Source: Halomonadaceae bacterium T82-2 (GTDB taxonomy: Bacteria > Pseudomonadota > Gammaproteobacteria > Pseudomonadales > Halomonadaceae). Taken from it: DNA of 63,862 bases. The position numbers were made by a program, and so were the translations under genes. The notes under the pieces were generated by a model, which was given only the letters and a program-made list of their open reading frames with translations, did not search any database and had not been told where the DNA came from. The stretch covers positions 1 through 63,862 of the forward strand of contig LSBP01000014.1 in NCBI GenBank assembly GCA_001577635.1, in the 5' to 3' direction. Shown here piece by piece: positions 58,873 to 63,862 of the stretch (the stretch's first letter is position 1; each line of letters starts with the position of its first letter).

Positions 58873-61800
58873 ACGATTATCCCCGCGCCTGCGGGGACCG
58901 GGCGGTGTTCTTGCGCGCCTTGCTGCGCAGCAGCGGGTTATCCCCGCATCTGCGGGGATCAGGCCTCGCGAACCTCGCGGCTCAGATGGGTGTTCGGGTT
59001 ATCCCCGCGCCTGCGGGGATCGGACCTCGCGAACCTCGCGGCTCAGGTGGGTGTTCGGGTTATTCCCGCGCCTGCGGGGATCGGGCCGGTCGACCAGGTC
59101 AGGGCTTCGCCATGCACGGGTTATCCCCGCGCCTGCGGGGACCGGATCTCGTGCGGCAGCGCCTTCATCGACCCGTACGGCTTATCCCCGCACCTGCGGG
59201 GATCGGTCCACCATGGCCTTGAAGGCCAGGCCGAGGCGCGGGTTATCCCCGCGCCTGCGGGGATCGGACAACGAGCGCCTGAGCAACAGCTATCAGGATC
59301 GGGTTATCCCCGCGCCTGCGGGGATCGGGGCGGCTATCTGGTCATAACTCCGGGTCCAGTCGGGTTATCCCCGCGCCTGCGGGGATCGGTACCTCGATCT
59401 GTGGGACCGCGCCGCGGCGACCGGGTTATCCCCGCGCCTGCGGGGATCGGCATCACCTCGTTCTCGAAGCGCAGCTTCGCTGCGGGTTATCCCCGCGCCT
59501 GCGGGGATCGGTTTCTCGATCACCAGGCTGGTGGAGGAGATCCCGGGTTATCCCCGCGCCTGCGGGGATCGGATCCAGTCCGGCGCCCAGTCACTGCCGA
59601 TGGGCGGGTTATCCCCGCGCCTGCGGGGATCGGCCGGAGAACGACATCACGCGCACCAAGGCCGACGGGTTATCCCCGCGCCTGCGGGGATCGGATCTCC
59701 ATGTTCTCCTTGAACATGCCGAGATGCGGGTTATCCCCGCGCCTGCGGGGATCGGTAAGCTGCAGCTCGAGCTGATGAAGATGGCGCCGGGTTATCCCCG
59801 CGCCTGCGGGGATCGGCACACTATCGAACACAGCCCGCCTAGTGCGGGCGGGTTATCCCCGCGCCTGCGGGGATCGGCATTCAGCGGCTTCTCGCTCGCT
59901 GTAGTAACGCGGGTTATCCCCGCGCCTGCGGGGATCGGGACGCCTACGCAGAGGAACCGATGTCCCAGCCCGGGTTATCCCCGCGCCTGCGGGGATCGGA
60001 TGGTGGCCCTAACCCATGGGTCTCCTGACTGCGGGTTATCCCCGCGCCTGCGGGGATCGGATCCTGACGCTGCTGGGCGAGATCGTCGGCGGCGGGTTAT
60101 CCCCGCGCCTGCGGGGATCGGACAGTTAGTGACACAAGTCCTAGCGGAGCCGGCGGGTTATCCCCGCGCCTGCGGGGATCGGGACACGCTCAAGAAGAGC
60201 TACTGGAATGAACGCGGGTTATCCCCGCGCCTGCGGGGATCGGATCTGATTGATCGTCTCGAAGCTGGGAGACGTCGGGTTATCCCCGCGCCTGCGGGGA
60301 TCGGTCCTGAGCGCACCATGCGAGAGGATTCCGTCGCGGGTTATCCCCGCGCCTGCGGGGATCGGTTCCCAGTGATGGCGTTGAATGCCTCAACAGCCGG
60401 GTTATCCCCGCGCCTGCGGGGATCGGAGAGCCACGGCATCAGCCGCAAGAGCGACGACCGGGTTATCCCCGCGCCTGCGGGGATCGGTATTCCCTGTCGC
60501 TGTGATCATCTGGCACGGGCGGGTTATCCCCGCGCCTGCGGGGATCGGCATCACCTCGTTCTCGAAGCGCAGCTTCGCTGCGGGTTATCCCCGCGCCTGC
60601 GGGGATCGGGGCGCGGTAATCCGCCGAGCGGAAGCGCGTGTCGGGTTATCCCCGCGCCTGCGGGGATCGGCCGGTGTGCAGCGCAGAGACCGGGGAGGAC
60701 GACGGGTTATCCCCGCGCCTGCGGGGATCGGCTGCCGCTCGCTCCAGTTGCGTCATTTCGCTGCGGGTTATCCCCGCGCCTGCGGGGATCGGACACTCCA
60801 GCGTCCATTCCTCTGGCGCCATTCCGGGTTATCCCCGCGCCTGCGGGGATCGGACCTGACTCCATGACGTGGGCTCCGCATCAGGCGGGTTATCCCCGCG
60901 CCTGCGGGGATCGGCCGCCGGCACGTTTTGCGCGGCTGGCAGATTGCGGGTTATCCCCGCGCCTGCGGGGATCGGTACGCTTCGAGAATTTGGGACAGGG
61001 GGTGAGCCGGGTTATCCCCGCGCCTGCGGGGATCGGTTTTTTTCGAGGATGCCCTGGCTGTGGCACACCGGGTTATCCCCGCGCCTGCGGGGATCGGGAG
61101 CAGGCTGTTGAGGCGGACGGCTGCCGGATCGGGTTATCCCCGCGCCTGCGGGGATCGGCGAATCGCCCGTTGCGCCGGGGACAGGTCGGGCGGGGTTATC
61201 CCCGCGCCTGCGGGGATCGGTCGTCACCCCGCTGATCATCTCCGCCCCGGAACGGGTTATCCCCGCGCCTGCGGGGATCGGGGGCCAACCAGACAGATTC
61301 GGGGCAAAACAGGCGGGTTATCCCCGCGCCTGCGGGGATCGGCTTCCGCATAATCAGCGAGCTGCTGCCGGTCGCGGGTTATCCCCGCGCCTGCGGGGAT
61401 CGGGTCTTGCCCGAGAGTTCGGTGATGGTCGGCCACGGGTTATCCCCGCGCCTGCGGGGATCGGCGCTCGAGGAACGCTTCGGCGTCGGCGTTGGCCGGG
61501 TTATCCCCGCGCCTGCGGGGATCGGCACCATGCTGGTGACTTTTTTCGCCCGGTTGCCGGGTTATCCCCGCGCCTGCGGGGATCGGTCGCGGTCGATGAC
61601 CTCGGCGATCAGTCGCTGCGGGTTATCCCCGCGCCTGCGGGGATCGGCCGCTGACCACCTGGGAGCAGATCGTCTGGGACGGGTTATCCCCGCGCCTGCG
61701 GGGATCGGCTCCTGGCCGATTCGCTGGGCCGCGACGAGCCCGGGTTATCCCCGCGCCTGCGGGGATCGGGCCTTTCAGCAGGCGGCCAAATCGACTGCCG

Positions 61801-63765
61801 CCGGGTTATCCCCGCGCCTGCGGGGATCGGGCGTCGCGCATGTACGCCAACCGGGTGGGCGGCGGGTTATCCCCGCGCCTGCGGGGATCGGTTCAGTGTC
61901 TCCGAGACCGAGCCGGCAACCGACGGGTTATCCCCGCGCCTGCGGGGATCGGGGTAACGGTAGTCGACCAGGAAAACCGAGACCCGGGTTATCCCCGCGC
62001 CTGCGGGGATCGGGAGCGCAGCCAGGGCCGCGGCCAGGGTGGCTCCGGGTTATCCCCGCGCCTGCGGGGATCGGTTGCGGATGCGCTCGACGGCCATGCC
62101 GATCTCCGGGTTATCCCCGCGCCTGCGGGGATCGGCTCTCGACGACCATCGGGGCATAGGTGCGACCCGGGTTATCCCCGCGCCTGCGGGGATCGGGTCG
62201 AAATAGTCCATGACCGCGGAGGTCGACCACGGGTTATCCCCGCGCCTGCGGGGATCGGAGCCGCCGCCGGGTCGCAGGTCTCCGGCGTGGCGGGTTATCC
62301 CCGCGCCTGCGGGGATCGGCTGCGACAGACGATCCGCGCGGGCCTGAGCCACGGGTTATCCCCGCGCCTGCGGGGATCGGGGTGGCGCGCATGGCGATGG
62401 CGAAGATCTGGTCGGGTTATCCCCGCGCCTGCGGGGATCGGACCTCGGCGCTGTTCTCGGTCTCGAGGACCACCGGGTTATCCCCGCGCCTGCGGGGATC
62501 GGTCTCTGCCTTGCTAGCGTTCTGCGTCACGGGCCGGGTTATCCCCGCGCCTGCGGGGATCGGCGTCGCTTCGTGCACCCCGGGGCGGTGGTCACCGGGT
62601 TATCCCCGCGCCTGCGGGGATCGGGGTACCGGGGCCGTTCAACCCCGACAGCAACCCGGGTTATCCCCGCGCCTGCGGGGATCGGTTGCCTACCGCTACC
62701 AGCTGCTTGCCGGTCGCCGGGTTATCCCCGCGCCTGCGGGGATCGGTTCCATGTCGCCTTCTTCTTCATGGAACGTGTCGGGTTATCCCCGCGCCTGCGG
62801 GGATCGGGAAGCCCCCACCGCCCGCAAGGGTGGTGGGGGCGGGTTATCCCCGCGCCTGCGGGGATCGGGCCTTGCGGGGCAACTGCCCCACGGTGCCAGC
62901 CGGGTTATCCCCGCGCCTGCGGGGATCGGTCGTCGGGTTTCGGTGAGCAGGCGGTGTCGGGCGGGTTATCCCCGCGCCTGCGGGGATCGGATAAACTCCC
63001 TCGAGCTTCTCAGATCAATGTGCGGGTTATCCCCGCGCCTGCGGGGATCGGTCGCCGGTGCCCAGGAGCTGGTGCGCAAGGACCGGGTTATCCCCGCGCC
63101 TGCGGGGATCGGCCCGCAGTTCCCGTCGCCCCAGTGCGCGATCGCGGGTTATCCCCGCGCCTGCGGGGATCGGGTGAGCAGCGGCAGCTCCTCGACGATC
63201 TTCGACGGGTTATCCCCGCGCCTGCGGGGATCGGGGCGAAAGTGTCGGCAGCAACGACGAAGTCGTCGGGTTATCCCCGCGCCTGCGGGGATCGGCTTTA
63301 CTGGTAGCGGGTAGTGGAGTCGAACCACGGGTTATCCCCGCGCCTGCGGGGATCGGGAGGTGCCCAATGCATCACGACGACGAGAAACCGGGTTATCCCC
63401 GCGCCTGCGGGGATCGGGTGCGGTGATGCTTGATGCTGGCCTGCGCGGTCGGGTTATCCCCGCGCCTGCGGGGATCGGTCGGCACCAGCCCGCTGCTCTC
63501 CAGCAGCGCCCGGGTTATCCCCGCGCCTGCGGGGATCGGACCGCAGTTCCCGTCGCCCCAGTGCGCGATCGCGGGTTATCCCCGCGCCTGCGGGGATCGG
63601 CTTGCCGCGTCGCGGTCACACTATCTCGGCAGCGGGTTATCCCCGCGCCTGCGGGGATCGGTGTTCGAGCGCAAGCTGCTCAACAAGAAGCAGCGGGTTA
63701 TCCCCGCGCCTGCGGGGATCGGCGCGCCGGCCTCGAGCGCGTCGATCCCTGGGACGGGTTATCCC
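58873..63765 (-). CRISPR. large type I-E-like CRISPR array, 81 repeats, truncated at right
   Basis: There are 80 full 29-bp repeats and a truncated 81st, with a 61-bp period (32-bp spacers). The plus strand repeat starts CGGGTTAT and holds the arms ATCCCCGC-GCCT-GCGGGGAT. The reverse complement ends GGGGATAACCCG, which matches the end of the E. coli type I-E repeat, so crRNAs read leftward with handle ATAACCCG. Leftmost repeats are decayed (58873 has ACGATTAT; 58934 CATCT and CAGG; 59056 TTATTCCC; 59178 CGGCTTAT), as expected at the old, leader-distal end. One repeat has an extra or changed G near 61191 and the spacer before 62230 is 33 bp. The last repeat stops after 11 bases at 63765, where an IS begins. 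No cas genes are in the window. Confidence 0.97.
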
Positions 63766-63862
63766 TGAAGTGGACCCCGAAATTCGGACCAGGCGCTAAG
63801 CTCTGATCATTCCGACAGGAGAACCTGATCATGAGCAGGAAACGCAGGCAATACAGCGCCGA
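63766..63862 (+). mobile_element. left end of an IS3-family-like insertion sequence
   Basis: The break in the CRISPR repeat is followed by TGAAGTGGACCCCGAAATTC and then GGACCA, an end sequence of the kind seen in IS3-family elements, and 65 bp further a transposase-like ORF starts. The element continues beyond the window, so its right end and any target duplication cannot be checked. Confidence 0.8.
63831..63862 (+). CDS. transposase OrfA start (partial, runs off the edge)
   Basis: The window ends 32 bases into this ORF: MSRKRRQYSA, the typical basic opening of IS3-family OrfA (helix-turn-helix, HTH_Tnp_1). GACAGGAGA precedes the ATG. The rest is outside the window. Confidence 0.75.
   Translation, partial: MSRKRRQYSA

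Follow-up and report, generated by a model that had tools for sequence, protein, structure and literature searches.

How much of a CRISPR system survives when an insertion sequence (IS) lands inside its array? This question is raised by the right-hand end of the window, by which we mean the whole 63,862-nucleotide stretch analyzed here. The window is contig C13 of a draft genome (G000) that comprises 55 contigs and 3.42 Mb, and the final 5 kb of this contig are a CRISPR array with repeats of 29 nt (in transcript sense: CCGATCCCCGCAGGCGCGGGGATAACCCG) and spacers of 32–33 nt. Eighty complete repeats at 58873–63722 on the minus strand form the leader-distal part of a type I-E array, which is transcribed leftward and ends in a degenerate trailer (from 58873 on). 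Next come spacer B00 (63723–63754, minus strand), the first one beyond the IS, and an 11-nt remnant of its upstream repeat, CGGGTTATCCC, at 63755–63765 on the minus strand. The remnant comprises the predicted 8-nt 5′ handle of the crRNA and one copy of a target duplication that reads CCC on the plus strand and GGG in transcript sense. The IS adjoins directly. Its left end, TGAAGTGGACCCC, starts at 63766 on the plus strand, places the start codon of orfA at 63831, and continues to the contig end at 63862. The transposase points rightward, toward the leader, and is antisense to the pre-crRNA. An earlier sequence-only reading of this DNA had described a truncated 81st repeat with an adjoining IS3-like end; both the count and the coordinates were correct.

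IS3-family elements start with TG and end with CA in short imperfect terminal inverted repeats, generate target duplications of 3–4 bp, and code for an OrfA with a helix-turn-helix and an OrfB with a DDE integrase core. The TG...CA termini are present in this element (TGAAGTGGACCCC on the left, GGGGTCCACTTCA on the right). The 97 bp past the junction are 100% identical at five places in the genome, namely in the window and at four other contig ends, and match the left end of a 1,268-bp IS in a genome of the same genus (G008) at 96 of 97 positions. The right end of the G008 copy matches that of the present IS at 90 of 96 positions. This full-length copy contains two open reading frames that match HTH_Tnp_1 and rve in a profile search; at the window locus, the assembled part of orfA is limited to the first codons. 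A 3-bp duplication is found in both cases, CCC at the CRISPR site and CTT at the flanks of the G008 copy. Judged by this relative, the element in the array is probably about 1.27 kb long. A search of the draft genome for the IS interior, with the G008 copy as query, matched only pieces of the right end (26–31 nt).

The continuation of the array was found on contig C15. On this contig, the right end of the IS adjoins a 21-nt piece of the broken repeat (G000:C15:17586–17606). The two repeat halves add up to the full repeat plus three nucleotides (11 + 21 = 29 + 3), and this excess is the mark expected of a single insertion with duplication of CCC. Beyond this piece, the array goes on with 29 spacers and 29 perfect repeats, and the leader and the cas genes come next. 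Hence, all that the sequence-only reading had proposed to look for past the IS, namely the remainder of the repeat, a 3-bp target duplication, the leader, and cas genes, is present on C15, and its suggestion that a longer array might continue past the IS also held. The leftward polarity that it had assigned to the array agrees with a leader beside cas2 on C15 and with degenerate repeats at the C13 end.

Since both C13 and C15 end inside the IS, their adjacency is not read directly, and the join had to be inferred from the available contig ends. The draft genome contains five left ends of the IS (C13, C29, C39, C43, and C53) and four right ends (C15, C18, C30, and C47). The flank on C18 also starts with CCC, but a pairing of C13 with C18 was rejected: one gene seems to be divided between C18 and C53, and the 60 nt beside the IS on C18 contain no repeat. 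The IS flanks of C29 and C30 have ACC in common. With C18 paired to C53 and C30 to C29, C15 or C47 is left for C13, and the repeat occurs on C15 only. C13 and C15 thus very probably represent one locus. The 3-bp rule is not uniform across the copies, as the flanks of C53 and C18 differ by one base (CCT/CCC), and C39, C43, and C47 are left without a partner.

The gene at the ends of C18 and C53 is a side observation. A second IS copy appears to split an AP-endonuclease-like DNA repair gene. The C53 piece matches AP_endonuc_2 from profile position 10, and the short C18 piece is presumably, by its motifs, the start of the gene. We also considered a composite element, that is, a segment between two IS copies, and rejected it, since an IS end occurs on nine contigs and on none of them at both ends; this check is still compatible with a chain of several contigs between two copies. 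Among 250 family genomes, the junction between repeat and IS was found only in that of the window itself, by a search blind to the opposite orientation, to other positions in the repeat, and to other IS families.

That both contigs stop within the IS also fits a different history, in which C13 and C15 are separate arrays, each with its own IS copy, or were joined by recombination between IS copies. We consider this history most improbable, because the two pieces of repeat match up precisely, given a 3-bp duplication, and because a relative has the same cas side and the same trailer side on one unbroken array. A sequence search with the exact repeat returned six stretches from three genomes (the record of the window itself may be omitted from this count). 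One of these genomes, Modicisalibacter tunisiensis LIT2, belongs to the same genus; its coordinates coincide with those of G011. In LIT2, the leader, 163 repeats, the trailer flank, and the fetched part of the cas genes are contiguous. Identity to LIT2 is 90.8% along 6.2 kb of the C15 flank and 94.5% along 6.4 kb of the C13 flank; both flanks bracket the single 163-repeat array. The two leaders agree at 116 of 117 positions. Seven of the 109 spacers recur exactly among the 162 of LIT2: six trailer spacers, which are the oldest, in the same order, and B34, the only one of the other 103 found there. The LIT2 array thus has the cas operon, leader, repeat, trailer flank, and oldest spacers of the array described here, but is longer, and among its 163 repeats no IS was found. 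From this comparison it follows that the arrays are homologous and that the trailer on C13 belongs with the leader on C15.

B34 itself is placed differently in the two arrays. It is the 64th spacer from the leader here (window 61648–61679) and the 21st in LIT2 (G011:C1:1136952–1136985), with different neighbors, and its protospacer may have been acquired twice. Among the distal spacers there are also duplicates or near-duplicates: B52/B70, B03/B10, and B77/B78 differ at 0, 1, and 2 positions, respectively, and the pair B77/B78 is common to LIT2.

In the joined locus, the broken repeat is the 30th of 110 from the leader, with 29 of the 109 spacers (A01–A29) on the leader side and 80 (B00–B79) on the distal side. 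The IS lies 1.8 kb from the leader, about a quarter of the way into the array. The description of the interrupted repeat as leader-proximal could therefore not be upheld, with 29 repeats in between. On the combined contigs, we hold with good confidence that an IS3-family element occupies repeat 30 of a 110-repeat type I-E array of a halophile, flanked by a CCC duplication. All 29 complete leader-side repeats are perfect, as are 73 of the 74 distal repeats nearest to the IS (the other has one mismatch), including the repeats flanking the IS on either side. Five of the six trailer repeats are degenerate. These repeats adjoin the spacers shared with LIT2, where the trailer repeats are degenerate too, and their decay is therefore probably older than the insertion. 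The other repeats give no sign of a long silence.

Next to the leader on C15 follow cas2, cas1, cas6e, cas5, cas7, cse2, cse1, and cas3 in this order, all eight with open reading frames. Each of the eight proteins exceeds the threshold of an appropriate NCBIfam model, Cas3 that of the core and HD models but not that of the full-length Cas3 model NF007248. A ninth protein (L009:5386–6255) gave no match in the NCBIfam profile search. The marks of type I-E are present: a 29-bp hairpin repeat, 32-bp spacers, and a leader beside cas2. In type I-E systems, Cas1–Cas2 insert new spacers at the junction between the leader and the first repeat. On C15, the leader, cas1, cas2, and the 29 perfect leader-side repeats are contiguous. 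The proposal that the insertion freezes acquisition thus finds no support in the layout of the locus and was rejected. The parts for acquisition appear intact, and because they are complete, acquisition at the leader should go on.

The effect on spacers that are already stored depends on where the repeat is broken. Processing of the pre-crRNA by Cas6e takes place at the 3′ base of the repeat hairpins and leaves an 8-nt 5′ handle. If we assume the same cut site as in E. coli, the IS lies exactly between the hairpin, which stays with the upstream half, and the handle, which makes up the last 8 nt of the repeat in the downstream half; the insertion point coincides with the predicted Cas6e cut. 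When the junction strand is folded in isolation, a hairpin of 6 bp persists in the upstream half (minimum energy −16.5 kcal/mol for 49 nt, frequency of 0.19), compared to 8 bp and −15.7 kcal/mol for the intact repeat. Spacer A29 would hence still be given a normal 3′ end. Since the downstream half is reduced to GGG and the handle, B00 should be without 5′ processing and would not be released from the IS RNA at this end. In the fold of the downstream junction, the next intact repeat lacks its normal hairpin and pairs with B00 and the IS end; we draw nothing from this structure, computed for a single strand in isolation. B01–B79 would keep both flanking repeats. By anatomy, B00 alone should directly lose its upstream processing hairpin, and the other 79 distal spacers would depend on read-through.

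We therefore turned to transcription across the IS. Our proposal is that the insertion demoted the distal spacers without switching them off: read-through, helped by a boxA-type signal in the leader, would sustain a reduced but non-zero expression. To this part of the explanation we give an even chance, and that some transcription crosses the IS seems slightly better than a coin toss. The leader carries the motif GCTCTTTAACA, which is boxA-like by the boxA consensus; its role is proposed by analogy with the literature. A boxA-like motif with 0–2 differences is present at −98 to −100 relative to the first repeat in every one of 20 leaders, our own included; these are the best loci from a leader-plus-repeat query that matched 52 of 201 family genomes, some barely beyond the repeat. 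Antitermination of CRISPR arrays was reportedly described by Stringer et al. in 2020. The introduction of one study states that transcription of CRISPR arrays is shielded from Rho by the rrn antitermination complex (PMC12691694). The motif in the present leader could in this way favor read-through.

Other features of the leader speak against so simple an account. A scan of the leader strand on C15 returned no promoter-like site. It returned two terminator-like sites, compared to 1.4 (sd 1.3) in shuffled sequences. A terminator-like inverted repeat separates the boxA-like motif from the array. An inverted repeat that spans roughly −63 to −31 is common to type I-E leaders of the family (L009:15711–15816; L075–L094). 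Of its cells, 97.1% are paired, compared to 38–61% in slid versions. No pair shows a two-sided change, and there is no excess over shuffled controls, 309 of 500 of which score as high. Covariation thus gives no support to an RNA structure; the inverted repeat may be a DNA site for acquisition instead of an RNA hairpin.

Alternatively, the IS could cut the array off, leaving the 80 distal spacers transcriptionally silent and subject only to decay. This view competes with the read-through part of our explanation alone, and we regard it as a serious possibility, if not the one to bet on. Among the matches listed, the leader itself was matched in the draft genome on C15 only; the IS would lengthen the transcript by probably 1.27 kb of untranslated sequence, a possible target for Rho; and its transposase is antisense to the pre-crRNA. 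Against complete silencing speak the boxA-like motif in the leader and the 73 perfect repeats among the 74 nearest to the IS, in which no decay is visible, although the insertion may simply be recent. With the G008 copy as a proxy for the IS at the window locus, two terminator-like sites were found in the region of the copy, compared to 0.6 (sd 0.8) in shuffles; one of them lies outside the IS, and the related IS copy has a single weak terminator-like site in the direction of the pre-crRNA.

The opposite outcome, in which an outward promoter of the IS rescues or raises expression of the distal spacers, also competes with read-through only. The distal spacers would be about 3 to 8 kb from the leader, and a role of this kind was suggested for E. 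coli ATCC 8739 by the authors of the respective report (PMC2886076). In the present case it appears improbable: the transposase points the other way, and neither strand of the G008 copy contains a sigma-70-like site, an absence that says little with 0.3 sites expected in shuffles. An extension of the read-through reading is that the IS acts as a switchable boundary, with 29 recent spacers fully expressed from the leader and an archive of 80 older spacers that is read only to the extent that a boxA-dependent antitermination complex takes RNA polymerase across the antisense IS RNA. We consider this extension unlikely. If it were true, a single event, either precise loss of the IS or recombination with another copy, could bring the archive back or delete it.

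Finally, we asked whether the insertion could have been selected for because it disables a harmful or self-reactive spacer. In Sulfolobus solfataricus, ISC1359 is reported to provide a precedent under plasmid selection (PMC4390879), and a second paper mentions an event of this type (PMC3839810). Interruption of repeat 30 should put B00 out of action and may weaken the 79 spacers beyond it. The search for targets in the genus covered 14 genomes, including our own, with 70 of the 109 spacers (A01–A29 and B00–B40) and at most 21 candidate places scored per genome. No clear self-target emerged from these 70 spacers with 21 of 173 candidate places scored in the draft genome; outside the arrays, the matches there were weak and partial (25 nt for A26 and 29 nt for A01). 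B00 gave only a 24-nt partial match, in G008. Selection for the loss of a spacer is therefore, in our judgment, very unlikely.

In a second comparison, all 109 spacers were matched to 23 fetched loci, where rows from the own array were dropped or were array copies (B42). Full-length matches with 1–4 mismatches in genus loci were found for B07, B11, B35, B36, B75, and B79; those of B75 and B79 came from the trailer query and not from the 70-spacer search. B21 and B33 match with 6 mismatches and without AAG. In type I-E systems, AAG adjoins the protospacers, and it stands directly 5′ of the matches to B07, B75, and B79; CAG is found instead at B35, AGG at B36, and GCC/ACC at B11 (two genomes). 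For the leader-side spacers, the 23 loci contained no full-length match with up to 6 mismatches outside the own array. The matches to B35, B36, and B75 fall within about 8.5 kb of a same-genus genome (G007:C11:235137–243684), a region that is perhaps a prophage remembered by the array. Comparison of the distal array with phage records returned eight records, all at spacer B67 (window 59634–59665) with 89–97% identity; the target is annotated as portal protein in seven of the eight, which are Burkholderia and Pseudomonas phages. The leader-side array gave one weak match of 29 nt.

The locus offers a natural experiment on the reach of the pre-crRNA, with the same leader and the same repeats but 29 spacers separated from 80 by a non-CRISPR insert, and LIT2 serves as the uninterrupted relative for comparison. 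It also illustrates that short-read assembly can cut an array at an IS, and that an array seemingly without leader or cas genes may be a broken contig. In the open-licence PMC literature we found no paper on this locus.

The insertion is a clear-cut case of a type of event that is already in print for other bacteria. For comparison with these, we take IS6110 of Mycobacterium tuberculosis to be a member of the IS3 family and the CRISPR2 array of E. coli ATCC 8739 to be of subtype I-E. IS6110 sits in a repeat in the interior of the M. tuberculosis array, and, as in our case, the halves amount to the repeat and three extra cytosines (PMC7708916); that system is of type III-A, with 36-bp repeats and an IS co-oriented with the CRISPR, in contrast to type I-E, 29 bp, and the opposite orientation here. 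In Xanthomonas citri pv. citri, an IS21-family element similar to ISRso19 lies in a repeat between two spacers and, as here, was first suspected from contig ends with the same inverted repeat; it differs from our case in the IS family, in an ancestral set of 23 spacers, and in confirmation by PCR and sequencing (PMC6889575). The array of E. coli ATCC 8739 is likewise interrupted by an IS and long for its species, although it has 32 repeats compared to 110 here, and an effect on transcription of the distal spacers was suggested (PMC2886076). As for the Sulfolobales, CRISPR loci are described as rather free of transposition, with one spacer inactivated by an IS (PMC4390879).
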